Shown here one piece after another: positions 18,618 to 37,519 of a stretch of DNA of 64,000 nt (positions are counted from its first letter, which is position 1; each line of letters begins with the position of its first letter). The notes beneath the pieces are model-generated. The model had not been told where the DNA came from. It saw nothing but the letters and a program-made list of their open reading frames with translations, and did not search any database. The position numbers were made by a program, and so were the translations under genes. Source of the DNA: a virus; the IMG/VR virus record IMGVR_UViG_3300017917_002068, positions 62,001 to 126,000 of that record; one strand, 5' to 3'.

Positions 18618-19290
18618 ACTGGTATCCTATTCAAGACCCACAGAGGAATTTGCCGAGCACGGTATCACAGATGCGCAGGAACTCATCGCGTATTGCGCCC
18701 GTGTCAGCAACCCATCAAACCAATTCAATACAGAGACATCAGAGAAGCTTATCCGATATCTTATCAAACACGCACACTGGAGTCCCCTGGAGATGGTCAG
18801 TGCCTGTATGGAAATCACGACGACTAGAGATATCGCTCGTCAGATCCTCAGACACAGATCATTTAGCTTCCAAGAGTTCTCACAGCGATATGCTAATCCT
18901 GTCGAGGATCTTAATTTCGTCATTAGAGAAGCACGGTTGCAGGACGCACGAAACAGACAGAATAGTGTCGAACTGGATCTGTCAGACGCCGAACAAAGAG
19001 AACTTAGTCGTCTATGGGAAGAAAAACAACAGGCTGTTATTAGAGCCTCTAGAGAAGCCTACACTTGGGCTGTCAATAACGGTATAGCTAAAGAGCAGGC
19101 CCGTGCTGTCTTACCAGAAGGTAATATTGAAAGTCGCTTATATATGAACGGAACCCTGCGTTCTTGGATCCATTATATCGAACTTCGTGCTGCCAATGGC
19201 ACACAAAAGGAACATATGGACATCGCTCGAGCCTGTGCCGGAGTTATTGCTGAAGTCTTTCCAATGGCTACTAGTCTAGTTAGTAATTAA
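18607..19290 (+). CDS. thyX: Flavin-dependent thymidylate synthase
   Basis: Makes dTMP from dUMP with FAD, NADPH and methylene-tetrahydrofolate. The ThyX signature RHRSFSFQEFSQRY (RHRx7S with flanks) is clear, and the N-terminal segment HAHWSPLEMVSACMEITTTRDIARQIL is the family dUMP/FAD region; the C-terminal segment with SRLYMNGTLRSWIHYIELR matches the last helix. 227 residues is normal. It completes a route with dCMP deaminase. The last gene of the + block; its TAA overlaps the stop of the convergent radical SAM gene. Confidence 0.95.
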   Translation: MNVKLVSYSRPTEEFAEHGITDAQELIAYCARVSNPSNQFNTETSEKLIRYLIKHAHWSPLEMVSACMEITTTRDIARQILRHRSFSFQEFSQRYANPVEDLNFVIREARLQDARNRQNSVELDLSDAEQRELSRLWEEKQQAVIRASREAYTWAVNNGIAKEQARAVLPEGNIESRLYMNGTLRSWIHYIELRAANGTQKEHMDIARACAGVIAEVFPMATSLVSN

Positions 19291-20708
19291 TAGCTTTTAC
19301 ACAACTTATAAAACTCTGTCATTTCGGGGAACGTTTTTAAAAAATTCGTTCCTCGTCTTTTATCATGTTCATCAACAAATGCTGCAAAATCTTTTCTGTT
19401 TTGAATGTTATTTTCTTTTTTAATCTTCTTTTCAAACACCGATAGCAGCCGTTCTAATTTTTGAACTTCAGATTTATAAAATCCAACAGAACTGTTCCCC
19501 TTAGTTACTAACAGTCTATTCATTTTTGTTATTTGCTGTTCAATTAAAGGAATAAAATCTTCCGTTAAAATTGCTAAAGACTGATGAGGCGGATTATTAA
19601 GATAGGGAATGTCTAACATCACCGGATGCGACCCTACTTCTGAGTTAAACAATTTATTTAAAATTCGTTTATATAAAGAAGGCTTACCATATTTTAAATT
19701 TAGTTTTAAAATATCATCTAAAAATTTATCATAAGTAGTCACCGATAGAGCATTATATGTGCTCATGATTCCTAATTTACATCCCGGTAGCTCTGTTAAA
19801 AACTTGTTACAATTATCTAACCATAAATCATAATCTAAGCCATATCGAATATACTCCGCTGCCTTTCCATGTGCTTCACAACTAGTATAGATCATTATAT
19901 TTTTTACTAATTTCTTTTCATTTATTATCTTTAGCTTAGAAATAAACTGATCAAACAGATTTTCCGGAACACAAAAATTAGAATTAATACCTAACTCTAA
20001 ATTTTTATTAGGATGTTCTATAATGTAATCTAGCACCCTGAAAGTATGTTTCGATAGCAACGGTTCACCGCCAGTAATTCTGAATGTATGCAAGTCAGGA
20101 TATAAATTCGGCCACCATTCCCAGAATGCATTAACATAGGGATTATCTACCTTTTCAGGTATAGGCATTTTATTCTGAATTTCAATCCATTGTAAATTAT
20201 TATACCGCATAGATGTTGGATACGGTCCATGCTCTTTGATTTCCTCCATCCATTTACTACTAACATCAGGCGAACAATAAGAACATTTAAAATTACAAAC
20301 ATTACTAAAAGAAACTTCTAGATATTTAGGATTTACTGATTTTTTAGATCCTGCAGATAAAATATCCGGTATAAATGGACGCGACCAAGATTCAGCACTT
20401 TTTAAAACTCTATCACTTAATGGCTCACCCGCATCCTCGACCTTCCAACAATAGTCACACTCTTTAGGTTTTATACCGTCAAGCATTTGTTGGCGGATTT
20501 CTTTTTTAAATGTTGTATTATGTAGTGCGCTAGGATCTTTTGCGATTTCGGATATCGGAATTACGTGAGTTCTTGGATGATGACAACTATGCGTATGGCC
20601 TAATCCTAGATGAATTGTTACCTGTGTCCATTTAGCAGCACAGAAACTAGGACTGATTTCATCGATTGTTTTTTTAAATCGAATCTGATCGTTGAACCAT
20701 TTGTTCAT
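19287..20708 (-). CDS. Radical SAM protein with N-terminal twitch-like cluster domain
   Basis: A 473-residue radical SAM enzyme. The SAM-cluster motif is CNFKCSYC (C138, C142, C145) and RITGGEPLLSKH gives the GGE motif. Before it lie four further cysteines in family-like settings: C23 (FCAAKW), C42 (SCHHPRTH) and the pair C84/C87 (CDYCWKVE), as expected for a twitch-type domain that holds an auxiliary 4Fe-4S cluster at the N-terminus. Twitch enzymes oxidise or epimerise diverse small molecules or sugars; the substrate here is unknown. It is the last gene of a coupled cluster with glycosyltransferase-like genes, so sugar or glycan chemistry is a reasonable guess. Confidence 0.85.
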   Translation of the reverse strand: MNKWFNDQIRFKKTIDEISPSFCAAKWTQVTIHLGLGHTHSCHHPRTHVIPISEIAKDPSALHNTTFKKEIRQQMLDGIKPKECDYCWKVEDAGEPLSDRVLKSAESWSRPFIPDILSAGSKKSVNPKYLEVSFSNVCNFKCSYCSPDVSSKWMEEIKEHGPYPTSMRYNNLQWIEIQNKMPIPEKVDNPYVNAFWEWWPNLYPDLHTFRITGGEPLLSKHTFRVLDYIIEHPNKNLELGINSNFCVPENLFDQFISKLKIINEKKLVKNIMIYTSCEAHGKAAEYIRYGLDYDLWLDNCNKFLTELPGCKLGIMSTYNALSVTTYDKFLDDILKLNLKYGKPSLYKRILNKLFNSEVGSHPVMLDIPYLNNPPHQSLAILTEDFIPLIEQQITKMNRLLVTKGNSSVGFYKSEVQKLERLLSVFEKKIKKENNIQNRKDFAAFVDEHDKRRGTNFLKTFPEMTEFYKLCKSY

Positions 20709-21363
20709 ATTTGTCTTTTAGCCATTTAAAGTCATTTATTTTTTTTAATATTAGCGGTCGATTTCTATTAATAAATCCGTATTCTTTACCGAACTTAGCT
20801 CCAAGTTCAGCAAATTCAGCATAGGGAACGTTATTAAATTTAGATGTCCATATATCTAATCTATATTCGTCTTCTGAAGATCTTCTATTAGGGATGATTC
20901 CAGCACTTAGCTTTGCACATTCTCTTACAGCAGTTCGCCAAGTTTGAAACTCGCTAGTATTAAATTTATGTATGCTAAGAGTTTTATTAACAATCTGTAC
21001 ATGCCCAACAAACGATGTAGTAAAGTCTATAACTTCTTTTTCCACGAAAAGACTTCGTTGAAATACTTTGATTCCTCCGTGCCCATATTCTAAGTCGTTA
21101 ATGGGATTACGAGATCTAAAAACGTAAATCTTATCTCTTTCTTTAACAGAGTCGTAAAAATCGTCTAACGAAAAATCTAAAAGATAATTGTCCGAATCAA
21201 TTACTACAAATTGATCAGTAAATGATTTTACAGAACAATTTTTATGAGATTGTGCGATACCATCGCTAGTATCAAAACGAGTCAATGTAGGAAATAATTT
21301 TTTAGCCCTGATAAAGTTTTCAGTAGCATTCGGATCATCGTAATTTAAAAAAAACTTTTCCAT
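20674..21363 (-). CDS. GT-A-like glycosyltransferase-related protein
   Basis: A 229-residue protein, paralogous to the gene just upstream: both start with a FLNYDDPNATENF / FISYDEPNAEINF segment, then an AHK/SHK motif, then a D-x-D at the end of a strand (FVVIDSDNYL, about residues 72-81), then GHGGIKVF. The DSD and Rossmann-like start fit a nucleotide-sugar-binding GT-A fold. It lacks a clear acceptor domain. It overlaps the radical SAM gene by 35 bases. Confidence 0.66.
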   Translation of the reverse strand: MEKFFLNYDDPNATENFIRAKKLFPTLTRFDTSDGIAQSHKNCSVKSFTDQFVVIDSDNYLLDFSLDDFYDSVKERDKIYVFRSRNPINDLEYGHGGIKVFQRSLFVEKEVIDFTTSFVGHVQIVNKTLSIHKFNTSEFQTWRTAVRECAKLSAGIIPNRRSSEDEYRLDIWTSKFNNVPYAEFAELGAKFGKEYGFINRNRPLILKKINDFKWLKDKYEQMVQRSDSI

Positions 21364-21364
21364 A

Positions 21365-22261
21365 TTATTTTTCCGAAAAATAAGTTTTTCCTAATTCTAA
21401 AGACTCTGAGTATAAATCTACAACATAAGAACTTTGCTCACTGTCAAAATAGGTCCAAGTTAATCCTAATTTTGATTTAATTTCTAAACCTAAATTTTTA
21501 ATCTCTAATATACATTCAGAGGGATTGGTTTCAAATTTAAAGGCTATGGCATCATATATTTCACGAAGCTTTTCGAAATCTCGAACATCATAATAATTCC
21601 AATCAGAATCGTGCAACATCAAGGATCCTTGCCTAGCTCCTAACATAGAATATATTCCATTTTTAGAATGAGAGCCGACACATGACCAAATTCTAAGTCT
21701 GTGCAAATTATGCCAATATACTTCCGTTCGAATATTTTTAGGTTCTACTCGAACTCCTTTTTTCGTAAGCATTTTTACACCTTCACGGAATCCTGCTCGC
21801 CATGCTTGATACGGAGTTTCATTGATGATACTATCGCTAAAAACTCTAGGAAAGTTTTTATAACCATTTTCCCAACAGAAATCTATCTGAGCTTCCGGCG
21901 ATTCCGCATCTTCGTGGGTTCTCATGGCTTTAACAAAATCTTTATTCCAAATTTTTATTCCGCCATTACCATATAATAATCCGTTTATAACATTACGACC
22001 GCACCAACTATAAACCTTAATGTCGGGATTATCTGATAATTCCAATTTTAAAAAACTTTCATATATTTGATTATCGCCGTCAATGGTCACAAACCAATCA
22101 GTATCTGCTAGATCAGCAGCGGCTTTGTGAGCAGCATCACTGCCTTTAACTCCATGTACCCGTTTTACCCAAGGTACTTTATTAGAAATATCAGCAAAAT
22201 TTATTTCAGCGTTAGGTTCATCGTAGCTGATAAAAACAAAATCTAGATCAGTTACTTTCAT
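21365..22261 (-). CDS. GT-A-like glycosyltransferase-related protein (paralogue)
   Basis: A 298-residue protein. Its opening VFISYDEPNAEINFADISNK, the segment HGVKGSDAAHKAAADLADT and FVTIDGDNQIYESFL (DGD as DxD, near residue 77) fit a GT-A fold, and GNGGIKIW matches the paralogue downstream. Similar proteins occur in T4-like aquatic phages. The C-terminal 110 residues are longer than in the paralogue and may set acceptor choice. Its stop is one base from the next start; its ATG overlaps the preceding stop by four bases. Confidence 0.72.
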   Translation of the reverse strand: MKVTDLDFVFISYDEPNAEINFADISNKVPWVKRVHGVKGSDAAHKAAADLADTDWFVTIDGDNQIYESFLKLELSDNPDIKVYSWCGRNVINGLLYGNGGIKIWNKDFVKAMRTHEDAESPEAQIDFCWENGYKNFPRVFSDSIINETPYQAWRAGFREGVKMLTKKGVRVEPKNIRTEVYWHNLHRLRIWSCVGSHSKNGIYSMLGARQGSLMLHDSDWNYYDVRDFEKLREIYDAIAFKFETNPSECILEIKNLGLEIKSKLGLTWTYFDSEQSSYVVDLYSESLELGKTYFSEK

Positions 22262-22854
22262 TCTATATAATATCCATAATTTTTAAATGTCTTCCTGGTA
22301 TAAAAACTAAATTTCATTTTAAACAAAACATCGATATCTATTTTGTTGATCGGAACCGAGATTTCGTTATTATCATTAAAATCGTCGAAATTAAAATAAA
22401 AAGATTCATAAAGAAAATTAATATCATTTAATCTTGTAGCATATAATCTTATACTGTTTTGCTTTTTATTTTTAATCTCGGAAAGATTTCCATTATACTT
22501 CATTACTAAGTAAGGCGAATTATCTATCGAGCATATTCTAAAAACAACTTCTAAAAAATTTAAAGATGTTTTGTTTATTTTTTGTATCTGAAAAAATTTA
22601 TTATATTCGGGTTCAAAAGTTACATCGAATTTATCTAAAACTTTTAGAAATTTACTTTCAGTATCAATTTTATAATTAGTAAATTTTTTCTTGTGTTCGA
22701 TAAAATCTTTATATAGAGGAAGATACTCTTCGGTAACTTCAGAAAACCATTCATTAATATTAATATATTTTTCAGGATATGACGTTGAGAAAGACCTCAG
22801 ATTACCGTTGTTTTTATCATAGATAAAATAAAATTTAGGTGTATCAGATATCAT
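22258..22854 (-). CDS. Unknown protein of the glycan/radical SAM cluster
   Basis: A 198-residue, Asn/Lys/Phe-rich protein with unusually AT-rich codons. Segments such as KFYFIYDKNNGNLRSFSTS and ISVPINKIDIDVLFKMKFSF suggest beta structure. No DxD, transmembrane segment or signal is seen. Four-base overlaps couple it to both neighbours, so its role is probably tied to the cluster. Not recognised. Confidence 0.65.
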   Translation of the reverse strand: MISDTPKFYFIYDKNNGNLRSFSTSYPEKYININEWFSEVTEEYLPLYKDFIEHKKKFTNYKIDTESKFLKVLDKFDVTFEPEYNKFFQIQKINKTSLNFLEVVFRICSIDNSPYLVMKYNGNLSEIKNKKQNSIRLYATRLNDINFLYESFYFNFDDFNDNNEISVPINKIDIDVLFKMKFSFYTRKTFKNYGYYIE

Positions 22855-23699
22855 AACTTAAAATTTTCTCTTAATTTTAAATCATACATTTCAATAATTT
22901 TAGAAAAATCAAGATCCTTTTCTACATAGTGTATAATGTCCATTTGTGAAAAAGATCCTATTTTGTAATCATCGACATTGTTAAAATAAAATCCTAAATC
23001 TAAATCCCATTTTGAAATATTCGACTTAAAATTTTGTACCATAGGTTTCATATGTACTATCTTAGGAAACTCTAAAGGATAAGATATTGTGTCAGCCAAA
23101 TCTAAAATCTTAGCCGACAATGAAAAAATTTCATCAGTTCCCATTTCTGGGGGTCGAGGATCATCTAAAAATACATTACAAAATTGTTCCTTATCTTCTG
23201 TAATTCCCTGTACCAAGTTAAAAAAAGAATCTACTAGTAATGATTCTTTTTTAAAGAACGTATATCCAGAATAAAGATTAGGCAGCTTATTAGGAGAATA
23301 TGTTCTCCTGTAATAGTCACTGGTTACAACATCGCCCCGATATGTATAAACTTTAGAAGGAATATAGAGATCTGTATTTTCAACAAAATGGTCAATCCAA
23401 TGACTAGTATCTCTTAGAAATATCATATCTGCATCTAAACATACAGTATGCTTCCATGGAGATATTTTATTCATATAAGACCTACCATCCCAGTGAGATT
23501 TTTTATCCCAATATTCGACTTTATCAAATACCCAGGAAGTTTTAAAAAGATCTAACTTTTCTTGAGAATCGGTTATTAATGCTACATTATCATAACCTTG
23601 CTTTTGTGTTCTTTTTATAGAAAGAGCCAACAAATAAGCCATTAAATGATAATCATGTTTTTCATGATTCGAAACAACTATAAGATATCCAAAACTCAT
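22851..23699 (-). CDS. GT-A glycosyltransferase-like protein
   Basis: A 282-residue protein. YLIVVSNHEKHDYHLMAYLLALSIKRTQ and NVALITDSQEKL (residues 5-50) resemble the nucleotide-binding half of GT-A enzymes; KHTVCLDADMIFLRDTSHW (about 82-100) holds the D-x-D. A second segment LEFPKIVHMKPMVQNF (about 211-226) contains the H often coordinating the metal in GT8-type enzymes. The next gene upstream is a weak paralogue. Donor and acceptor unknown. Confidence 0.75.
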   Translation of the reverse strand: MSFGYLIVVSNHEKHDYHLMAYLLALSIKRTQKQGYDNVALITDSQEKLDLFKTSWVFDKVEYWDKKSHWDGRSYMNKISPWKHTVCLDADMIFLRDTSHWIDHFVENTDLYIPSKVYTYRGDVVTSDYYRRTYSPNKLPNLYSGYTFFKKESLLVDSFFNLVQGITEDKEQFCNVFLDDPRPPEMGTDEIFSLSAKILDLADTISYPLEFPKIVHMKPMVQNFKSNISKWDLDLGFYFNNVDDYKIGSFSQMDIIHYVEKDLDFSKIIEMYDLKLRENFKL

Positions 23700-24514
23700 G
23701 ATAGTAGTTCATCCTTGAAATTTAAAATGTCTAACTTATTCATCAAGTGAATGTCCGAGTCTTGTATAGTCAGTATTGAATCGTTTCCTTTTAATAATAA
23801 TTTAAACTTTGAATCCTTTACCGATATTATTTTTTCTTCTTGTAAAGAAAAGTTTAAAGGCGGAAGAGAAATTCTATTAGTATCTTGACAATATAACATG
23901 TGTTCAGCTATCGTGAATGCTATATCGTTTCTGTACTGAAAGGGGATAAAGTTGTATATGTCTGAATAATAAACATAATTTTCTTTGATATGTTTAACAA
24001 GATCGAAAAAAATTTCTGCCGACGGAGACTTGTCGAACATGATAGCAGTAGCCCATTTTAATCGGGGGCCGATATCAGATATTTTTAAGTCCGGATCTTC
24101 TAATCTATGTCCTGCATGATCAATCATCGATTCACATAGAATAACATCTTGATCAATTTCCCAATATTGGTTAAACCTATCTGTATAGATTAGTAAATCC
24201 GAGTCAATTAATAAAGTTTTATCGTACGGAGTTAAACGAAACACATCTGGTCTGTTAAAGTTTAAAAAATTATCAACAACTTTACCGTCGATCGTTCGAA
24301 TATTTCCAGACTCGGGTTTTTCAGTAACTATAATCTTGTCAAATTCTTGATTAACATCAAAATTAGATTTTAAATTTTCTAGTGTATGTGAATCAGTAAC
24401 TAGCGAAACAGGAGTTGCTAAATGTTTTCGAGCTAGCCTGGCTGATATAACAGAGATGGTAGAATAGGAAATTTGCTCATTGTCATGAGCGACTATTAGT
24501 ATTCCTCTATTCAT
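23696..24514 (-). CDS. GT-A-like glycosyltransferase-related protein
   Basis: A 272-residue protein resembling its downstream neighbour: RGILIVAHDNEQISYSTISVISARLARK then VSLVTDSHTLENL, and DKTLLIDSDLLIYTDRFNQYW with DSD as the metal/nucleotide motif. A late segment SDIHLMNKLDIL sits where the neighbour has its second motif. Both are shorter than typical GT8 proteins. It is coupled to the genes either side by four-base overlaps. Confidence 0.68.
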   Translation of the reverse strand: MNRGILIVAHDNEQISYSTISVISARLARKHLATPVSLVTDSHTLENLKSNFDVNQEFDKIIVTEKPESGNIRTIDGKVVDNFLNFNRPDVFRLTPYDKTLLIDSDLLIYTDRFNQYWEIDQDVILCESMIDHAGHRLEDPDLKISDIGPRLKWATAIMFDKSPSAEIFFDLVKHIKENYVYYSDIYNFIPFQYRNDIAFTIAEHMLYCQDTNRISLPPLNFSLQEEKIISVKDSKFKLLLKGNDSILTIQDSDIHLMNKLDILNFKDELLS

Positions 24515-24861
24515 AGTTTGCTTAGATCTTTAACTGATCGGGCTTTTTTTAATTCTTCTACTTTATCTACATAGGAATAGGTTGCAGAAAAATATCTATC
24601 CAATATTGTAGAATGGAATTCTACAACATTTTTAATTATCGTTGGATTTTTATTTGCGTCAAGTACTGGAACATTTTCAATCCTATCACTGTCAATTAAA
24701 AATTTAGTAAAATTGATTAAACTTTGATCAATTTTAAAAATTCCGCCGTTATACCCAAAAGTAAGATCTGAATCTAATTTTTCTTTCAAATATTGACGTT
24801 GTACTGTTAAAGATTTATGGTAGTCTGCGAATTCAAGAGCCGATTGTATTTTTTCATTCAT
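24511..24861 (-). CDS. Small conserved phage protein, first gene of the cluster
   Basis: A 116-residue, charged, helical protein starting MNEKIQSALEFADYHKSLTV. A central motif FGYNGGIFKIDQSLINFTKF and the terminal RSVKDLSKL are typical of a small family in T4-like aquatic phages. No catalytic residues are evident. Its ATG lies six bases after a sigma70-like promoter, so it may be translated leaderless. As first gene it may regulate or support the enzymes behind it. Confidence 0.68.
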   Translation of the reverse strand: MNEKIQSALEFADYHKSLTVQRQYLKEKLDSDLTFGYNGGIFKIDQSLINFTKFLIDSDRIENVPVLDANKNPTIIKNVVEFHSTILDRYFSATYSYVDKVEELKKARSVKDLSKL

Positions 24862-24910: not shown

Positions 24911-26068
24911 TTATGAAGCAGTAATTGAAGTTGGAGCTATAACTATCGAAGAGAATGGATAAGATAATTCAATGTCATTTCTTGTATAATAAAATATGTA
25001 AGCGATACTAACATCTGCTGTTACTGCTTCGGCAAAAATATTAGCATGAGCATCTACCAATGTAATATCAAATCGGATACGTCTTTCAGTGATAGCTCTA
25101 TGAGTTATTCTTAGATAATTGGTTGCATATGCGCCTGTTCCGGTTCTTTCAAATATGATTCTATCAACAGAGTCGGCACTATAAAATCCAGCAGTCGTCC
25201 AGGTACCTGGTCTATTACCCATATTGGCATTACTATCTGCGCCGTAATTAACCGGAGTATTATCTAAAATTGCTGCCCAGGATAAATCTTTGAGTCTATT
25301 ATTACCGGCCGATTGAGCGGCGCCTGCATTAATATCAAATTGAACATATCCGCCCGTATTAAAATACTGTCTAGCTGCGTCTCTGCTAGGCCATTCAACT
25401 TCGAGCCTAAAAGATAAGGTTCCGGTCCAGTTAGCAGTAAAGTTTGCAGGACTTGAACCTGGTTGATTTGAGAAGAAATCGCCTAGAAAATATTTTTGGG
25501 TGGCACAGGTATTAGCTAGAGTAAAGAATGCATCATATACATTATAGTTTATAGGTGTTCCTCTAACTAATACCGGCAATTCACCTGCAGCAGTTCCGTT
25601 AGCAACTTCAAACCCAGTCTGATGTTTTCTAACTTTAGCCAGATCAGTACGTAACCTATTAAATTGATTAGCCGATACAACAAACTGTTGAATGCGACCA
25701 GTTTGTCCTGTTTGCCATGCTGAATATTCTCTAGTATCTATGTTAATTATAAATGTAAATGTAGTCACCGAAACAACCACAGCATATTTGTCGTTTAACT
25801 GCGTCATTCCAGCACCGATACTATCGATGTAGATAATTTCTCCGGATACTAAATTATGAGCAGTTGATGTTGTTACTGTTGCCTGCGAAGCATTAGAAAC
25901 CTGTGATATAACAGCAGACGAAAATGGATATTGTTCAGAAACAATAACAGTCTGTCCATAACCTGTTCCAATAGGAATTGAACCTGATTGTGGTCCTATC
26001 AAAGATGCTATTGTTGTTTGAATTGCATTATATTCTGAAAATAAAATTGGTGACCCAAGACTTGCCAT
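24911..26068 (-). CDS. Virion structural protein (tail-associated)
   Basis: A 385-residue protein, last of the late structural unit. Residues 55-115 (SQATVTTSTAHNLVSGEIIY, GMTQLNDKYAVVVSVTTFTF) match a beta module often annotated in phage structural proteins as FCCH-like. The C-terminal half is beta-rich with LEVEWPSRDAARQYFNTGGYVQFDIN. Expected outside the cell as part of the tail or fibres. AAGGAT precedes the ATG. No enzyme motif. Confidence 0.72.
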   Translation of the reverse strand: MASLGSPILFSEYNAIQTTIASLIGPQSGSIPIGTGYGQTVIVSEQYPFSSAVISQVSNASQATVTTSTAHNLVSGEIIYIDSIGAGMTQLNDKYAVVVSVTTFTFIINIDTREYSAWQTGQTGRIQQFVVSANQFNRLRTDLAKVRKHQTGFEVANGTAAGELPVLVRGTPINYNVYDAFFTLANTCATQKYFLGDFFSNQPGSSPANFTANWTGTLSFRLEVEWPSRDAARQYFNTGGYVQFDINAGAAQSAGNNRLKDLSWAAILDNTPVNYGADSNANMGNRPGTWTTAGFYSADSVDRIIFERTGTGAYATNYLRITHRAITERRIRFDITLVDAHANIFAEAVTADVSIAYIFYYTRNDIELSYPFSSIVIAPTSITAS

Positions 26069-26077
26069 TTTTTATCC

Positions 26078-27862
26078 TTATAGTATTATCGCTTCGACTA
26101 ATTTAATGTCAGTAGATTCATTAGATTCTAACGAAATAGCGAATACATCGCCAGTCTGGTGATGTGTTGCAGCAATAGCATAGCCTGTGTCTGTCGCTAC
26201 TAAACGTTGTCCTTTTTTAACAGATCCGATTACTTTCACTGGAACTCGACCTTTTAATGCAACTGCTTGTCCTTCGGCTTCAGAATTCATTAAATATGCA
26301 GGATTTGCAGAAATAACTCCTATCGCTCTATCACCAAATTTAGCTGCTGTCACTTCCTGTTCTCCACCTACGCTGATTACGGTCCCTACTTCATAGTCTT
26401 TATCAGTTTTATATATTTCAGCAAGGTCAGCATAGTTAGCAGATGTGGCTGTTCCGTTGAAGAATCTAGCTTCAACATCACCAGCTAAATTTCTAAGTAC
26501 TACTGAATTTGGAATTTTATTAATTGACGGGGTTTTTCCGTCTAATTTTAAAGCGTCTGAAGCTATTCCATCAAATTGAATAGCTTTAATCACTCCGCTA
26601 GCATCTCTAATTGGAATAGTAACTCCAGTGGGATTTGATTCAGACGAAGGAAGATAACCAGCTAATCTCAGAGAATCTAAAGAACTTCCAGATTGGCCTG
26701 AACAATCTCCTACTACGTTTCCGACTAGATTACCGTTGAATATTTTATTAACAGAATCGTATGCAGTTTGCCCAGATGAATCTCGTAAATTTCCTTGATG
26801 AATTCCTGTAGTGTTTCCTGTTACATTTCCTGTTAAATTACCAAACAGACTAGTTCCATGAATTTCTTTCCAGGTACGAAGTGCTGATCCTAAACTAACT
26901 CTATTAGTTTGTCCTGGGGCAATAGTTACCGCAGGATATGCTGTAGCCAATGCTCCTGTAAAAGCAGTTCTTGTGATGATAAACATATCATCGAAATCTT
27001 CAGTAGAACCTGCATTACTGATTCGAACTCTAATAGGTCCGTTATTTAAATTTTGTATAATAGGAGAAGAACTAGCAATACTGATGCCTAGATCATTTCT
27101 ATCGCCAACAGTTAGACCTGCATCAGAAAAAGAAGTTCTTGAAGTAAAACCAACATTATTACCAGACCGTAACACGTATTGGCTAGCTGGTTGGCCGCCC
27201 AATCTATCAGAATCTGTAGCTGTACCGTAAAATTTAAAATTACCTTGGCTACGTCCCGTAGATGACGAAACTGAATTTAGTGTTACTCCTGGAGAGACTC
27301 TGTTATCCGCTGCGGAAAAACCGCTGATCTGATTAGTGTCTGATAGGCTAAAAGCAGCATCATTACTGAATATCGCTGTTGTAACACCATTTACTACAGC
27401 TCTTAATATAACATGAGATCCGCCTTGAGTATCTTTTACCGTTTGTGTGATTAATTGAGATGTACCAAAACCTGGAGCACTCTGAGGACCAACTAGAACA
27501 AATGTAGAACCTGTCCATACTGATACTTGGCTGGTCGTCGAATCATACCAAAGATCACCTTGTGTTAAACCTGTAGGAGGTGTTTCAGAAACTTCTGGGC
27601 CCGACGCTGTTTTAAATTTTAATCCGTCATAAAACTTTAGTTTTTTAGTTCCACTGTCATACCAAATTTGACCAGTGATTGGTTTGCTAGGCGGAATAGT
27701 ATTAGAAAAGTTTTCTAAAAGATACAAAAAGTTTTCATTTTGTACTTCGCCGTATCCAGCATAATTTTGTCCGATAAATCTTAGATCGGTTGAATTATCA
27801 ACCGTGCCCGGAGCTACACTGGTTAAAAAAGTTCCATTATATCTATCTACTCTGTATGACAT
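26078..27862 (-). CDS. Tail-fibre-like protein, paralogue 5 of the fibre set
   Basis: A 594-residue protein. Its N-terminal 200 residues are the shared module (YAGYGEVQNENFLYLLENF, ITGQIWYD, LWYDSTTSQVSVW, LVGPQSAPGFGTSQLI). The middle has GN-x-TG repeats (LTGNVTGNTTG). The C-terminal 120 residues (NYADLAEIYKTDKDYEVGTV, AIGVISANPAYLMN, VALKGRVPVKV) resemble the phage chaperone-type G2 domain that helps trimer folding. It has its own late promoter. Confidence 0.78.
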   Translation of the reverse strand: MSYRVDRYNGTFLTSVAPGTVDNSTDLRFIGQNYAGYGEVQNENFLYLLENFSNTIPPSKPITGQIWYDSGTKKLKFYDGLKFKTASGPEVSETPPTGLTQGDLWYDSTTSQVSVWTGSTFVLVGPQSAPGFGTSQLITQTVKDTQGGSHVILRAVVNGVTTAIFSNDAAFSLSDTNQISGFSAADNRVSPGVTLNSVSSSTGRSQGNFKFYGTATDSDRLGGQPASQYVLRSGNNVGFTSRTSFSDAGLTVGDRNDLGISIASSSPIIQNLNNGPIRVRISNAGSTEDFDDMFIITRTAFTGALATAYPAVTIAPGQTNRVSLGSALRTWKEIHGTSLFGNLTGNVTGNTTGIHQGNLRDSSGQTAYDSVNKIFNGNLVGNVVGDCSGQSGSSLDSLRLAGYLPSSESNPTGVTIPIRDASGVIKAIQFDGIASDALKLDGKTPSINKIPNSVVLRNLAGDVEARFFNGTATSANYADLAEIYKTDKDYEVGTVISVGGEQEVTAAKFGDRAIGVISANPAYLMNSEAEGQAVALKGRVPVKVIGSVKKGQRLVATDTGYAIAATHHQTGDVFAISLESNESTDIKLVEAIIL

Positions 27863-27880
27863 GGTTATTTCCGTTTCGTT

Positions 27881-27888
27881 TATTTATC
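27881..27888 (-). promoter_or_regulatory. Late promoter (GATAAATA)
   Basis: On the - strand GATAAATA fits NATAAATA. The start site would lie near 27875, giving a 13-base leader (AACGGAAATAACC) before the fibre ATG at 27862. It lies between the small gene at 27897-28361 and this fibre gene, so that fibre can be made separately. Confidence 0.6.
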
Positions 27889-27896
27889 GGTAAATT

Positions 27897-28361
27897 TTAC
27901 TCTAAAGTTTGTCTTTTTAAAGCCATTTCTTTTTCTTCTTCTAAAGAAACCCAGGTATAAGCTTCGGTATTATTTGCATAAACTTGTTTTTGCTCTTGAT
28001 ACTGAGATCTAACTGTATCTAAATAATCCTTTAATTCTATAAATTCTGGGGTTTTTTCTATATTTGATCGAGCTAACATGTCTAAAATTATATTAATTTG
28101 TGTATGTATAGGAAATCTATCTAATACAGTTACATTGGTGTTATATCGAATATAAGACTCAGTTATTAAAGGTTTATCTGCTTTAGATCTAATCTCCCCT
28201 GTAGCGAAATCACCGTACCAGTAGTCTCCTCTGATTGGATCTATATCTACTGTTTTTACAAGAAAGTTAGTTAGATCTAATTTAGACTTATCTGTTTCTT
28301 GAGGAATTTCTCCAAGAAAAACTCCAGTGCTTTTTAAAAATAATAAATCTACTGTTTTCAT
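27897..28361 (-). CDS. Small protein between fibre genes, unknown
   Basis: A 154-residue protein, one base from the oxygenase gene upstream. The N-terminal half is beta-rich (KTVDLLFLKSTGVFLGEIPQ, GDYWYGDFATGEIRSKADKP) and the C-terminal half helical (KDYLDTVRSQYQEQKQVYAN). Small proteins lying between fibre genes are often assembly chaperones; no defined family is recognised here. Confidence 0.62.
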   Translation of the reverse strand: MKTVDLLFLKSTGVFLGEIPQETDKSKLDLTNFLVKTVDIDPIRGDYWYGDFATGEIRSKADKPLITESYIRYNTNVTVLDRFPIHTQINIILDMLARSNIEKTPEFIELKDYLDTVRSQYQEQKQVYANNTEAYTWVSLEEEKEMALKRQTLE

Positions 28362-28362
28362 T

Positions 28363-28863
28363 TTATTGTCCTATATTTCCCCAAGCTAAAACTAGACTAT
28401 ACTTGGGATTTTCATCTTCTTCTATTTTGGTTACAGCATGTTCTAAATATATTGGCATTTCTAAAAAAGAACCGGGTTCTTCATCGACAAGGTGACTATT
28501 TCCTTGTTCATCAAACCACTGAAAGTGTGGTCTATCACTTCTTAAAAATATCAATTTAAATTTCCAATAACCACCGGCGCTGTCCTTATGTCTTAAAAGA
28601 TAATCTCCCGGATCATATCTGTTTATAGTAAAACTTGTTATCGTTCGCTTGTCATCCGGAATCGTAGAAAAAATTGCATCAACTAATTTTTCACTCATGT
28701 TAAAATGAAAAAGACTTTTTAATTTACTATCACCATAAGCTGTAGAAAAATTATATTGCTTGCCAGGTTGTCTATCAGAAAATTTATCTCTGTGATCTTC
28801 TACCAGAGATAAAATTTCATCGACATTAGTTAGATAATTTTTCACTAGATTAACCCGATACAT
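28363..28863 (-). CDS. 2-oxoglutarate/Fe(II)-dependent oxygenase
   Basis: A 166-residue member of the prolyl-4-hydroxylase-like 2OG oxygenases. The iron ligands are H and D of RHKD (about residues 99-102) and the later H of EHAVTKI (about 144), and KYSLVLAWG supplies the 2-oxoglutarate-binding basic residue. YDPGDYLLRHKDSAGGYWKF is typical of phage members. These enzymes hydroxylate proteins or nucleic acids; its place between tail-fibre genes suggests a fibre side-chain as target, by inference only. It overlaps the fibre gene upstream by 14 bases. Confidence 0.85.
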   Translation of the reverse strand: MYRVNLVKNYLTNVDEILSLVEDHRDKFSDRQPGKQYNFSTAYGDSKLKSLFHFNMSEKLVDAIFSTIPDDKRTITSFTINRYDPGDYLLRHKDSAGGYWKFKLIFLRSDRPHFQWFDEQGNSHLVDEEPGSFLEMPIYLEHAVTKIEEDENPKYSLVLAWGNIGQ

Positions 28864-30637
28864 ATTCCCAACTTGTTCCTAACGAATTTACTCTAAACAC
28901 TAAATCATTATTTCTTAATGGATTCGCAATAGTAGCAGTACCTGTACCAATTGATGTAACAAAGGAAACACTAATCCAACCGCCTACTGAATATGGAATT
29001 GTAACGCTAGCCGAAGAATATTCAGATCCTGCAATTCTAGCAGTTTGTCCCGGTTGATAGTTTGCCACTGGAGCAAGAGTGTTTAACAAAGTTGCGATGC
29101 CATTAACCGATAAACCTTTTGTATCTAATGAAAACACCAAAGGTTTGGATAGATAAAATGTTTCTGCATATTCTTCTACATATTGTTTTGTTGCAGCATG
29201 GTTAGGATTAATCGGAGCGCCAACTAAAGTTAAATAGCCGGTCATGCTACTACCCGACTTCAATACTGCTAGGGGATCATTTACTTCAATATTTTCGCTA
29301 CCATCAAACAATACTCCATTAATTCTTACAGGTGTTAAAAATTTATTTGATGTGCTGGCATTCCCGAGATATGTATAGCCTCCATCTACAGGATCGCCAA
29401 AAGTCTTAGTAGCGTGATTAAATGCTATCCTACCATCAATAGCAAACAAGTCGCCGGTATGATCTCCTTCAGTATCTCCTACTAGATTTCCGGATACATT
29501 TCCGGATACATTGCCAGTCAAATTACCAATAAAATTCTTTGTCAAAGGATTATAAGCTACAGAATTGTCGCTAGCTCGAATTTCACCTTTATGAGATCCA
29601 GTAGAATTGCCCGTTAAATTTCCTTGAAATGTTCCAAGAAAAGTTCCTTGAATACTTCCGGCATTGACCGTATCTGCCCATATAGTTTTCCATCGGGTCG
29701 ATGAGCTTCCAATGTCTTGTGTTAGATCATCTCCAGGCAAAAATCCTTCTGGATTAAAAATATAATCTAGTATTTCAGTATTGTCTTTTATCCTGATTGT
29801 TAGATCAGTACCGGATTGATTTTCGATGACCGGATTATTGCCATTTTCAACCCATAGTCTCAAATCTCCTGGATACGGAGCACCGGGATTATCTCCTTCG
29901 CCTACTGTAAATCCTTCGTCCCCAAATGTCGAACCTACAGGATTTCTTCTAATATAACTAGTTGGTTCCAGCCCGCCTAATCTTTCAGAGTTTGAAGCAG
30001 TTCCCCAATATCTATGAGCTGAGCTTGTTGTGCCGTTAGTACCAGTATTGATTAAGGTAAAACCTTTTTTGATTCTAGTGAAACCAGTAATCGAATCAAT
30101 AATTCCAATGTCAAATTCGTCGTCGGCGATCGTGGCAATTACTGCTCCATCTACGAATACTTTTATAATGGGATATTCAGTGTTTCCGTTGTCTCTTATA
30201 GTTCCAGAAATTAGTCTAGTGTTACCGAACCCGGGAGATTGTTGAGGTCCAACAATTACAAATTCTGTACCGCTCCATACGTTCAGTTGATTTTTATCAC
30301 TATCATACCACAATGTTCCAGCATCTCTCGCTAACAAACTAGTAGGAGGTATAGCATCTACTTCTGTTACTGTTAATGCTCTCCAGTTACTGGTAGCGTC
30401 TCGATATTTTATTCTATTATTAGATTCATCAAACCATAACTGACCAATTATCGGTCTTCTTGGAGATGTTGTTCCTCTAAAATTTTCTAGTATGTGTAGA
30501 AAGTTTTCATTAGTGATTTCGCCATATCCAGCATAATTTTTTCCGATAAGTTTTATATCAGAACTAGTTGAATCAACTGTTTGATCCGGAACCGTTGTAA
30601 AAACTGTTCCATTATATCTATCAATCTGGTATGGCAT
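28850..30637 (-). CDS. Tail-fibre-like protein, paralogue 4 of the fibre set
   Basis: A 595-residue protein with the shared N-terminal module (NYAGYGEITNENFLHILENF, IIGQLWFDESNNRI, LWYDSDKNQLNVW, VGPQQSPGFGNTRLI). Then come QGNLTGNSTG / GNLTGNVSGNVSGNLVGD repeats and a C-terminal domain with an AATKQYVEEYAE helix, seen also in paralogue 3, probably a fibre trimer segment. SD GGAG precedes the ATG. Structural, host-range candidate. Confidence 0.78.
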   Translation of the reverse strand: MPYQIDRYNGTVFTTVPDQTVDSTSSDIKLIGKNYAGYGEITNENFLHILENFRGTTSPRRPIIGQLWFDESNNRIKYRDATSNWRALTVTEVDAIPPTSLLARDAGTLWYDSDKNQLNVWSGTEFVIVGPQQSPGFGNTRLISGTIRDNGNTEYPIIKVFVDGAVIATIADDEFDIGIIDSITGFTRIKKGFTLINTGTNGTTSSAHRYWGTASNSERLGGLEPTSYIRRNPVGSTFGDEGFTVGEGDNPGAPYPGDLRLWVENGNNPVIENQSGTDLTIRIKDNTEILDYIFNPEGFLPGDDLTQDIGSSSTRWKTIWADTVNAGSIQGTFLGTFQGNLTGNSTGSHKGEIRASDNSVAYNPLTKNFIGNLTGNVSGNVSGNLVGDTEGDHTGDLFAIDGRIAFNHATKTFGDPVDGGYTYLGNASTSNKFLTPVRINGVLFDGSENIEVNDPLAVLKSGSSMTGYLTLVGAPINPNHAATKQYVEEYAETFYLSKPLVFSLDTKGLSVNGIATLLNTLAPVANYQPGQTARIAGSEYSSASVTIPYSVGGWISVSFVTSIGTGTATIANPLRNNDLVFRVNSLGTSWEYVSG

Positions 30638-30648
30638 ATTTCGCTCCG

Positions 30649-31008
30649 TTATCCTGTAATGCTTTTAGCTGCTGTTTGTCTTTGATTTTCTAAATCAATA
30701 TATTCTTCTTCAGTCATTGATGTTTCTATGTTTAATACTTTTTCTCTTAGATGTCGTAGAATTTTCCAGTCTGTAGAATTCAAAAATTCTTTCTTTTCAC
30801 TGTTTTCAGTGTATGTCTGCTGATCTAAAATTTGAGATTGTGTTAATGGTTCTACTTTTCTAGTTTCAAGATTAAAATAGTGAGTTTTATTTTCTAATAA
30901 AATGTAATCATTATCAGTTATTTCTGTTATGGAAACAGAGCTCGGAACCAAAGGTTGATAGTTTAATATCGAAATTAATTGGTTATCTTCTATGCATACG
31001 TAATACAT
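30649..31008 (-). CDS. Tail-fibre assembly chaperone-like protein
   Basis: A 119-residue protein. The C-terminal half KEFLNSTDWKILRHLREKVL followed by SMTEEEYIDLENQRQTAAKSI matches the phage tail-assembly chaperone style (a DW, then a helix with LR, then an ending helix). The N-terminal half is a beta module with LLENKTHYFNLETRKVEP. GGAGTT precedes the ATG, which lies in the gap after the preceding fibre gene. The role is inferred from this pattern and from context. Confidence 0.68.
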   Translation of the reverse strand: MYYVCIEDNQLISILNYQPLVPSSVSITEITDNDYILLENKTHYFNLETRKVEPLTQSQILDQQTYTENSEKKEFLNSTDWKILRHLREKVLNIETSMTEEEYIDLENQRQTAAKSITG

Positions 31009-31012
31009 TATA

Positions 31013-32629
31013 TTAACTCCAAATTGCTAACCAGTTTGCCGCTGGTGTTGATCTTTGTTCGGTATTTTGTACATATACTCGAATTCGGTCTCCAAAATTA
31101 CTCCAGGTACATCTTAAGCTATCATTACCATCAACTCTACCAGCATAATGTATAACAGCTATGCTGGGAATAAATGCTATTAAATTTAACATGTTCTTTC
31201 CGACAGGAGGAAAAACATCAAAAAAGTTCGCACCGTTATTCCACGAACCTACTTGGTTTGTAAAACCAGATTGGCTATACTGAGTATTACCGTATGTTAT
31301 AGTGTAATTTGGTGGCACTAACGCTAATGTCGCCGCTTGATTAGCTAAATCTCTCGTATCAACATATTGCTTTGTTGCCGCCTGTAATGAACTTGTCGGA
31401 TCGCTAGGAAGTGTTAATGATCCCAATAATGTTCCGCCAGCTAAAGGCAATTTTGTTGAATCGGTTACAGTAATATTCTGTGTCCCGTCAAAAGATACAC
31501 CGTTAATTGTTCTCGGATTTAATAATCGGGTAGCAGTTCCTGCATTACCGGTTACATTACCAGTTACATTACCGCTAAGATCCCCAGTTACATTTCCTAG
31601 GTGTTCTCCGGAAGTATTTCCAATAACATTTCCAAAAACGTTTCCTGTTAAGTTTCCAGTTACATCGCCTGTTAAGTTTCCAGTTACATTTCCAGTTATA
31701 TTACCATTAACGTCACCTAACACATTTCCATAAACAGTCACTGGACCTGTTCCAGTAATTTGACCGACAATATCAGCGGTTATTGTGCCTGCAGAAAAAT
31801 TACCGCTACCGTCACGCTTAACAATTGTATCATCTAAGTTATTAGATGATGCTTGTACAGACCATGTTACATTTGCTGAACCGTTATATGGCGACCCGGA
31901 TAAGAAATTTCCTGGGGTTAAAGAATACTGAGAGTTTGCTTGAATTGTTATATCTGCTGATCCGTCAAAAGCTACACCGTTGATTGTTCTAGCTGTTTCA
32001 AGAACAGTAGCAGTTTCGGCGTTGCCCGACAAATCTCCGTTAATCAACGATGTCGATGATAACGTAATTCCTTTAGATAAACTAGTAAAACCAGAAATAG
32101 AATCTAATACATTTATATCAAATGCTCTTTCTGCAAGTATCGCGACAACCGTATCATTTAAGGTAACTTTAATTATAGGAAAATATGTTCCGGCGGTGTC
32201 TCTAACTTTTGTAGATATCAATCGTGTATTACTAAATCCTTCCACTCTCTCTGGGCCAACAAAATTCCACTGAGTTCCATTATAAACATATAATTGTTTG
32301 TTTGTTGAATCAAACCATTGATCTCCAGCGGCGGCTTGCGACGGTTGAGTTGATGATATTTCTGTAGATCCTACAGCGTTCCATTGCGCTCCAGAATATA
32401 CTTTTATTCTTCCTTCAGTTGAGTCATACCATAACTGCCCTAAGATAGGTCTATTAGGTGCGTTATTTCCGGCAAAATTTTCTAGAAGCCAAAGAAAATT
32501 CTCATTTTGAATTTCGCCATATCCAGCAAAATTTTTACCTACAAGCCCGACGCTAGTAGATGAATCTAATGTTCCGTCTTCTAGTACTACAAACGGATCT
32601 CCGTTAAATTTATTAAGTTGATATGGCAT
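31013..32629 (-). CDS. Tail-fibre-like protein, paralogue 3 of the fibre set
   Basis: A 538-residue protein. The shared N-terminal module is residues 1-180 (NFAGYGEIQNENFLWLLENF, ILGQLWYDSTEGRI, QWFDSTNKQLYVYNG, GPERVEGFSNTRLI). The centre holds a long run of four-residue GN-x-TG-type repeats, then INGVSFDGTQNITV, a TKQYVDTRD helix, and a C-terminal beta tip. Likely a trimeric fibre on the tail or baseplate. Confidence 0.8.
   Translation of the reverse strand: MPYQLNKFNGDPFVVLEDGTLDSSTSVGLVGKNFAGYGEIQNENFLWLLENFAGNNAPNRPILGQLWYDSTEGRIKVYSGAQWNAVGSTEISSTQPSQAAAGDQWFDSTNKQLYVYNGTQWNFVGPERVEGFSNTRLISTKVRDTAGTYFPIIKVTLNDTVVAILAERAFDINVLDSISGFTSLSKGITLSSTSLINGDLSGNAETATVLETARTINGVAFDGSADITIQANSQYSLTPGNFLSGSPYNGSANVTWSVQASSNNLDDTIVKRDGSGNFSAGTITADIVGQITGTGPVTVYGNVLGDVNGNITGNVTGNLTGDVTGNLTGNVFGNVIGNTSGEHLGNVTGDLSGNVTGNVTGNAGTATRLLNPRTINGVSFDGTQNITVTDSTKLPLAGGTLLGSLTLPSDPTSSLQAATKQYVDTRDLANQAATLALVPPNYTITYGNTQYSQSGFTNQVGSWNNGANFFDVFPPVGKNMLNLIAFIPSIAVIHYAGRVDGNDSLRCTWSNFGDRIRVYVQNTEQRSTPAANWLAIWS
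31543..31733. repeat. Degenerate tandem repeats in fibre gene
   Basis: About 16 degenerate repeats of 12 bases encode GN(V/L/I)(T/F)G-type units (GNVTGNLTGDVTG and so on) in the fibre gene. Runs such as ccagttacattt are nearly identical between units, a feature open to slippage and recombination with the similar runs in the two other fibre genes. Confidence 0.75.
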
Positions 32630-32655
32630 AGTTTTTTCGCTCTTTTATATTTAAG

Positions 32656-34638
32656 TTATACGTATGTTCCGAATAGTCCAGAGTAAGAAACTGTCGGTGA
32701 AGTATCCTCGACTAAAGCAGTAGTCACTATCCAAGATTTTCCACTCGGTGCTCCGGATGCTTGTAAAGTCAATTCAATATATCCCCTTCTTACTAAAGGT
32801 CTAGCAAACGCTCTTCTTGGTATTTCGTTTGCAGCTACAGCGGTTACATTTCCGCCTGATGTTGTAACTGCCAATGTCGGAGTAAGTTCTAAGAAATCTG
32901 GCAAATAATATCTAAATGTAGAAATTCTAGCTTTAGTATTAATATCAAATTCAGTAGATGGCGCTATAGATTCTAAAATATCAACTATCTGGCCGTCAGT
33001 TAATGGACTATCCGACAACGGATCATCACCTGTAATATCTAAGACTAACGGCAAATTACGTGTTCTAACTAGATTAGTAACATATCTCTTTGATGTTGCT
33101 TCAGATAAAATAGTGTCCGATAGTGCAGAACTTGCCTCAGTTTCTTGACTGATCGAATTTTCATTTGCTGTTTGAATACCGATAATTTTAGGCTTAGTGG
33201 CGCCTTCTAAAACAATATTGCCGAGAGGCTCGATGATAATATTTGCAGGATTAGCACTGCCGCCATCTGAATATGGTAACGTTCTAGCATTGTTAGAAAT
33301 TCTATTATTATTGATTGTAATATTATCAGCAGTAATAGAAATTTGCGCACCGAACGATGTTAATCCAGGAGCAGCCGAAACAGCATTGGTTAATTCATAT
33401 CCGGAACCTGTATCTCTTAAAACTTCAATCCCGTTAATTTTATAACCTTTGAGTGCAGGAATATCAATATTTTCTGAAAAATCCCAATCATTAGTTGTTG
33501 AATTCCACAGGATAGTATGATCTGTAGTACCTTTTAATATAATTCCGCCGCCATTGGCAGAAACATCAGTCGGTGATCCTGCTGACGGAACGGCTAGTTC
33601 AATATTTTTATCTGATAAAGTTAATGTTTCTGCTGCTACAAAAGTTGTGCTGCCCTCAACTGTAAGGCTTCCGGATATAGTAACATCTCCCCCTACAGAT
33701 AGTGTGCTATTGGCGTTAGAAGGAAATATTCTTAAAACGTCCGGATCATTAGATAAAATTGCAGATGGTTCGATTGCTATTGCTGTCTGAGGGAAATTCT
33801 CTTTAGTGTATCTAACAAACAATCTTCTATTGCTGGCGATATTAGTCATTAATACATCACCAGAAGAGTCTGCTTCTAATTTGCCTTGAGGTCCCGGGCC
33901 CCAAGATATACCAGCGGTATTTTGCACAGTAATTGGTTGTGTAAAGGTATTAGCAATACTTTTTCTAGGATAATCTGCTGCAAGATAAGTTCCTAATCGA
34001 TCAGCATCATCACTAATACCTCTAAATTTAAAATCTGTAGGATTAGCAGGATTAAAACCAATTCTCAATATAGGATTATTATTAGTAGGGTCAGCATTAT
34101 AACCTGCCGGTCTGTTTCTAATAGAAAATTCTGAAGTACTGATATATCCAACTAAAGAACCAGCGTTATAGACCGAAGTAACAGTTCTAAATCTTCTATT
34201 ATTATCTTCTATTTGCTCAACTCTTAAACCGCTGATGCCCTGACTAAATGTAAAATCTGGGCCTAAAAGATAATCCCGCACACCGTCAAAAAAGTATAAT
34301 TGTTTTTCTAAACTGTTAAACCAAAAATCCCCAACACCTACAGTTAAAGGCCTTGCTTCTGAAAGAACTGCTGTACCGATTGATCTCCATGATGATCCTG
34401 AATAAACTTTAATCCTGGCTTCGGCAGTATCATACCATAACTGTCCTGTTAATGGATTATTAGGCTGAGACTGGCTGGAGAAATTTTCTAATATTTTTAT
34501 AAAATTCTCATTAAGATATTCTCCAAACCCGCTGTAATTTTTACCAATAAGAGTTATATCTGTAGTAGCTTGGTCGATCTGTCCGTCTGCTACAGTTACT
34601 ATCGGTGTTCCATTTGTTAAATTAATTGTATATGCCAT
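32656..34638 (-). CDS. Tail-fibre-like protein, paralogue 2 of the fibre set
   Basis: A 660-residue protein with the shared N-terminal module in divergent form (NYSGFGEYLNENFIKILENF, LTGQLWYDTAEARI, FWFNSLEKQLYFFDG, LLGPDFTFSQGISGLR). The centre has LTVEGSTTFVAAETLTLSDK, a segment of the coiled/beta type found in T4-like long fibres, and no GN-x-TG repeats. The C-terminus is beta-rich. It lacks the collar domain of the next paralogue. Confidence 0.76.
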   Translation of the reverse strand: MAYTINLTNGTPIVTVADGQIDQATTDITLIGKNYSGFGEYLNENFIKILENFSSQSQPNNPLTGQLWYDTAEARIKVYSGSSWRSIGTAVLSEARPLTVGVGDFWFNSLEKQLYFFDGVRDYLLGPDFTFSQGISGLRVEQIEDNNRRFRTVTSVYNAGSLVGYISTSEFSIRNRPAGYNADPTNNNPILRIGFNPANPTDFKFRGISDDADRLGTYLAADYPRKSIANTFTQPITVQNTAGISWGPGPQGKLEADSSGDVLMTNIASNRRLFVRYTKENFPQTAIAIEPSAILSNDPDVLRIFPSNANSTLSVGGDVTISGSLTVEGSTTFVAAETLTLSDKNIELAVPSAGSPTDVSANGGGIILKGTTDHTILWNSTTNDWDFSENIDIPALKGYKINGIEVLRDTGSGYELTNAVSAAPGLTSFGAQISITADNITINNNRISNNARTLPYSDGGSANPANIIIEPLGNIVLEGATKPKIIGIQTANENSISQETEASSALSDTILSEATSKRYVTNLVRTRNLPLVLDITGDDPLSDSPLTDGQIVDILESIAPSTEFDINTKARISTFRYYLPDFLELTPTLAVTTSGGNVTAVAANEIPRRAFARPLVRRGYIELTLQASGAPSGKSWIVTTALVEDTSPTVSYSGLFGTYV

Positions 34639-37511: not shown

Positions 37512-37519
37512 TATTTATT
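37512..37519 (-). promoter_or_regulatory. Late promoter (AATAAATA)
   Basis: On the - strand AATAAATA fits NATAAATA and overlaps the stop codon of the giant gene by two bases. By T4 spacing the start would be at 37506. It drives the conserved protein and possibly the collar-domain fibre gene behind it. Confidence 0.62.

Follow-up and report, generated by a model that had tools for sequence, protein, structure and literature searches.

Virion glycosylation has a precedent among tailed phages in the mycobacteriophages, for which Freeman is said to have described, in 2023, glycosylated tail and capsid proteins (as cited in PMC12619734); both the type of phage and the target proteins differ from those considered here, and we know of no radical SAM enzyme in that system. 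Nearer to our subject by content is the host recognition cluster of pelagimyophages, which comprises tail fibres, GT8 enzymes and radical SAM cassettes (PMC7029224); it is described as a non-syntenic hypervariable island, and its freshwater members are said to lack radical SAM genes (PMC7029224). Like it, the locus that we describe combines a T4-like structural region and its tail fibres with radical SAM genes and glycosyltransferases of GT8 type, and because of this resemblance its setting is not wholly new (PMC7029224). Indeed, the combination by which a T4-like host recognition cluster is recognized, that is, tail fibres, glycosyltransferases and radical SAM genes within the structural module, is present. 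The pelagimyophage cluster, however, is reported as non-syntenic, whereas here we find a fixed order of seven genes.

The window that we analysed is a stretch of 64,000 nucleotides from a 128-kb IMG/VR virus record. ORF calling places seven minus-strand genes at 19287-24861, transcribed in the order G-F-E-D-C-B-A; these are exactly the coordinates at which the first-pass annotation had claimed an overlap-coupled cluster, and all seven genes overlap or abut (four overlaps of 4 nt, a gap of 1 nt between C and B, and an overlap of 35 nt between B and A). Its account of the extent of the cluster stands as to the seven genes and requires amendment in one respect: the operon also takes in the tail-fibre genes upstream. 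The first gene of the block, G (24511..24861), encodes a small conserved protein of 116 residues, and D (22258..22854; 198 aa) is a protein with no assigned role. None of the seven proteins has a predicted membrane segment (0/7), and the block contains no flippase, polymerase or membrane protein and, within the same seven-gene set, no gene for sugar-nucleotide synthesis. The G+C content falls to 0.28 in positions 22001-24000, over D, E and F, compared with about 0.36 around them.

Upstream of A-G, and co-directional with it, lie H, I and more fibre-type genes, followed by baseplate genes. H (24911..26068, minus strand; 385 aa) lies 49 nt upstream of G; it has an E1_FCCH-like stretch that scores slightly under the Pfam cut-off and, judged by gene position, is probably virion-associated. 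I (26078..27862, minus strand; 594 aa) is of tail-fibre type with a C-terminal region like that of intramolecular chaperones, in which a Peptidase_G2 match also falls slightly under the cut-off. Several fibre-type ORFs at 26078-34638 have an N-terminal region in common (phrog_15511/phrog_14394), which suggests duplicated fibre attachment domains. Between a baseplate-wedge gene and the fibre genes, a single ORF of 5019 residues occupies positions 37518-52577; its location alone makes it a candidate for VrlC. On the opposite flank, a plus-strand gene of the thymidylate synthase family (phrog_85), ThyX-like by sequence, faces A. The T4 late-promoter motif TATAAATA is absent, against some 10 copies expected from dinucleotides; since the higher-order expectation is only 1.3, this absence carries no weight. 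Scans for sigma-70 promoters and for terminators returned chance levels.

The last gene to be transcribed, A (19287..20708; 473 aa), encodes a radical SAM protein that matches NCBIfam NF033640 (N_Twi_rSAM) with 343.4 bits against a cut-off of 170, over model positions 1-398 of 398. By score and cysteine pattern A is thus a member of this twitch-domain family, to which no function has been assigned; its arrays in phages and Bdellovibrionota, alongside B/C, are described here. The N-terminal cysteines to which the first-pass annotation had drawn attention (C23, C42, C84 and C87) are, together with C138xxxC142xxC145, conserved in 87/87 close relatives and in about 99% of 159 relatives. The extra cysteine set can, in principle, hold an auxiliary Fe-S cluster, and the overall pattern is what would be expected if the enzyme carried an auxiliary cluster in addition to its single SAM cluster. 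An NCBIfam profile search also returned weak similarities of A to peptide maturases. Isolate phages are uninformative in this regard: among INPHARED phage records the best match for A has only 24% identity over 58% coverage, and B, C and E have no match.

The first-pass annotation had further proposed that four D-x-D proteins of the cluster are GT-A-like. Structure prediction agrees for E and C, which do model as GT-A folds and match known structures, and profile homology points the same way for F and B. AlphaFold2 models of E and C were built, with 40 aligned sequences as input for E and 49 for C; in both, the D-x-D follows a beta strand, and the family alignments show this motif to be invariant or nearly so in all four proteins (D89/D91 in E, D104/D106 in F, D61/D63 in C, D56/D58 in B). 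The model of E (22851..23699; 282 aa) has a mean pLDDT of 91.9 and a GT-A fold for which the top Foldseek matches are LARGE1, XXYLT1, GlyE, glycogenin and LgtC (best E-value, 1.6e-8). Searched against PDB sequences, the E profile finds glycogenin (E-value 0.0009), as does, more weakly, that of F (E-value 0.009). E and F (23696..24514; 272 aa) are homologous (hhalign, 5e-24), and a GT-A fold is predicted for F on the strength of that homology. GT8 enzymes such as glycogenin, LgtC, LARGE1 and XXYLT1 share with E (in the model) and with F (through homology) the GT-A fold, the D-x-D after a strand and a C-terminal His/Lys motif, which is H216-M-K in E and H256/K260 in F; the likeness is confined to the level of profile and fold. 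As neither protein has a relevant Pfam match at E-values up to 1, we refer to them as GT8-like, not as GT8. E has one weak PHROG match (phrog_1903, E-value 0.0003), to a family of unknown function.

B (20674..21363; 229 aa) and C (21365..22261; 298 aa) are paralogues (hhalign, 3e-47). Comparison of the profile of E with that of C revealed no relationship. For none of B to G did searches of Pfam, PHROGs and NCBIfam return a convincing match, and for B and C there was no relevant one. The model of C (mean pLDDT 92.6) consists of an N-terminal GT-A core, which carries D61xD63, and a helical C-terminal domain; from it, a GT-A fold is also predicted for B by profile homology. The top Foldseek match of C is the capsid-glycosylation glycosyltransferase of PBCV-1 (2p6w; E-value 2e-5), followed by many GT2-type and other GT-A enzymes. 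The GT-A core is common to C, 2p6w and the GT2-type enzymes, but the TM-scores to 2p6w are low (0.33/0.44) and C has the additional helical domain; because the TM-scores to known glycosyltransferases in general are modest (0.3-0.47), we leave B/C without a donor class. Against viral models, C retrieves three uncharacterized phage proteins and then mostly glycosyltransferases.

The same neighbourhood recurs in other phage genomes. Three IMG/VR scans, seeded with A, C and E, yielded 148 contig loci, and the counts that follow are therefore conditional on finding one seed. By profile, 106 viral contigs carry E, F or C; the order F-E-D-C is present in 88 of the 106, G-F-E-D-C in 81, and the complete G-F-E-D-C-B-A in 53. 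When the contigs are grouped by C, F-E-D-C is found in 32 of 38 non-redundant groups. Each of the junctions G-F, F-E, E-D, D-C, C-B and B-A lies between -70 and +20 nt in 98-100% of relatives, and both order and overlap are kept down to 20-30% identity. D is divergent, and an ORF of about 190-210 residues fills its position in most relatives. The relatives' contigs, about a hundred, are fragments of aquatic phages in which the block is contiguous and co-directional with fibre genes. The recurrence of this ordered block is far above chance. The alternative entertained in the first-pass annotation, that these are separately moving hypotheticals, is thereby contradicted for the block; A, on the other hand, also travels without the glycosyltransferases. 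There are 42 loci with only A within the flanks (some because contigs end) and several in which A genes are inverted, which indicates that A also moves independently of the block. Because A is often found without the glycosyltransferase block, and its array is sometimes inverted, it need not share a product with the glycosyltransferases.

In relatives, two to seven A-type genes often stand in a row. Whole virus records have up to 15 NF033640 matches, as compared with one in the record from which the window derives; the 235-kb record with the maximum of 15 has most of them within about 35 kb. In a tree of the A copies (midpoint root, some weak supports), those of different phages largely form recurring paralogue clades, among which Bdellovibrionota copies are scattered. 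Genes near the arrays encode a GT7 together with lectin-like LamG, an SDR epimerase, a carbamoyltransferase and a B12-type radical SAM protein. In 24 phage and three Bdellovibrionota loci, a further family adjoins A or separates it from B/C (for example, L002:9381-9977, L191:7948-9159, L187:11878-13119 and L192:8029-8703); its GGWYG, DIDP and NTS-EH motifs lead us to call it methyltransferase-like, a reading of motifs without a Pfam match.

When bacterial genomes were scanned, close relatives of A came mainly from Bdellovibrionota; four genomes have 3-20 copies each. Above the cut-off, A is present in 16 of 59 sampled Bdellovibrionota genomes, in up to 13 copies; the 20 copies belong to a genome outside that sample (G013). 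The expansion of N_Twi radical SAM genes in this phylum (G010, G013, G052 and others) is mostly clustered on chromosomal contigs. Relatives of B/C occur in three of the 59 sampled genomes, all three of which have A. At one locus (L186), whose contig has genes of bacterial type, C-B-A share a strand; a second (L191) reads C-B-X-A, where X is the methyltransferase-like gene; a third (L192), on a 2-Mb contig, begins with a pair of GT2 genes, followed by A, X, C, a flavoenzyme weakly similar to UGM, A and another GT2 gene; and in a fourth (L193), a distance of about 4 kb or more separates B and A from genes for a sugar transferase and a polysaccharide dehydratase. An A-type gene lies within 3 kb of B/C at five of eight loci, for which random placement gives P of about 6e-8; since radical SAM genes tend to lie in clusters, this value is approximate. 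That A, B and C occur together on bacterial chromosomes means that the set is not phage-specific, and the shared loci in these predatory bacteria suggest gene exchange between phage and bacterium.

We propose that, in a T4-like aquatic myovirus, A-G is the distal part of the tail-fibre operon and would act as a late, soluble operon for building and tailoring a glycan. Conserved overlap and order argue for co-expression and joint function, and the presence of four GT-A proteins, all soluble and all with a metal-site motif, argues for sugar transfer from nucleotide donors; glycan synthesis by the block is well supported, and what it acts on and which radical reaction takes place are inferred. 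The glycan-type neighbours of the radical SAM arrays (GT7 with LamG, the SDR epimerase, the carbamoyltransferase and the SGNH-like and methyltransferase-like families) and the chromosomal counterparts also count in favour of this reading. E and F may transfer sugars from nucleotide donors as GT8-like, probably retaining, enzymes; B and C could extend or branch the chain, with D and G as putative partners in assembly or specificity. Because A is paired with B/C in two unrelated settings, it may tailor in the same pathway, by a radical modification such as dehydrogenation, epimerization or dehydration of a sugar or acceptor residue; each of the tandem copies in relatives could then contribute one tailoring step, diversifying the surface met by hosts and rival phages. 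As for the target, the phage's own tail fibres are favoured because the block is co-directional with late fibre genes and has neither flippase nor membrane anchor, and we hold the reading as a whole, with decoration of these fibres as the most likely outcome, at about even confidence. Given the chromosomal setting, fibres cannot be the family's only kind of target.

The main rival is that A-G, acting during infection on a lipid-linked or surface glycan of the host as acceptor, remodels the host surface (LPS or capsule), thereby excluding competing phages or preventing re-adsorption to debris. Such a role was proposed by the authors of the pelagimyophage study for GT8-rich host recognition clusters (PMC7029224), and the Bdellovibrionota cassette is found near surface-polysaccharide-type genes, a setting with which a target on the cell surface agrees no less well. 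The contiguity and shared direction of the block with late fibre genes across relatives speak against it, as does a block without membrane protein, flippase or polymerase, and we regard it as a real but minority possibility. Most characterized twitch/SPASM enzymes have peptide or protein substrates, and a different view takes the residue modifications of RiPP and sulfatase-maturing SPASM/twitch enzymes as its model: A would act mainly on a polypeptide, be it a fibre protein or D/G, through a cross-link, epimerization or thioether, and the glycosyltransferases would then glycosylate that protein. The weak similarity of A to peptide maturases and the availability of D and G as small conserved partners are in keeping with this; yet A accompanies B/C and glycan genes in chromosomal loci, where there is no fibre, and no precursor-peptide gene is obvious among the ORFs of 60 residues or more, nor was a clear core motif recognized. 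We find a polypeptide substrate doubtful.

Hypermodification of the phage DNA against restriction, by the glycosyltransferases together with A, is unlikely, and markedly so. Phage glycosyltransferases with such roles are known (cited in PMC12619734), but the genes here sit in a structural-gene context, and PF00303 (dCMP-hydroxymethylase/thymidylate synthase) is absent from eight virus records (fragments) in which controls worked; a search for PF12851 (TET) gave no match, but neither did its control, so that it carries no weight. Least credible of all is that there is no system, only independent hypotheticals brought together by chance in a hypervariable island. One might cite for it the low G+C of D-F (0.28) and the 42 contigs with A alone; it is contradicted by the recurrence of F-E-D-C across the non-redundant groups and the maintenance of order and overlap at low identity, and B/C and A keep company on chromosomes too.

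How far, then, is this an undescribed system, as the first-pass annotation had suggested? The radical SAM subfamily was already catalogued, and GT8 and radical SAM genes near fibres had been reported (PMC7029224). What appears to be new is the ordered block, a B/C family without Pfam or PHROG entry, the tandem radical SAM arrays with their recurring paralogue clades, and the chromosomal counterpart in Bdellovibrionota (C-B-A, or B/C near A), which glycan-biosynthesis genes adjoin in several cases. In the open-access papers searched, neither the block as an ordered unit, nor the B/C family, nor the link between phages and Bdellovibrionota is described, which does not by itself prove novelty. 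We tentatively suggest, at somewhat less than even confidence, that phages and Bdellovibrionota share a so far undescribed glycan-tailoring system composed of N-terminal-twitch radical SAM arrays, the GT-A proteins of the new B/C family and a methyltransferase-like protein as partner, which would place radical-made sugar modifications on fibres or cell surfaces. If true, radical SAM chemistry diversifies the sugar coat of phage receptor-binding fibres (or of the host), and a large uncharacterized radical SAM subfamily and an unclassified GT-A family gain a testable function.

Several other observations concern the neighbours and relatives of these genes. A family without a Pfam match, labelled SGNH-hydrolase-like from its apparent motifs (GDS...G, HPS..H), recurs beside the arrays in 41 loci (for example, L003:7419-8354 and L034:13005-13850). 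Relatives of B are often 350-870 residues long (L140, L127, L135, L144, L070 and others), and in several of those aligned the conserved domain is preceded by a B-like copy that is degenerate and has no D-x-D. Distant relatives of C adjoin glycosyltransferase genes on Streptomyces plasmids, and a C homologue with 41% identity lies, outside any phage context, within a type VI secretion island on a plasmid of Rhodobacter sp. CZR27 (L150:7980-8906).
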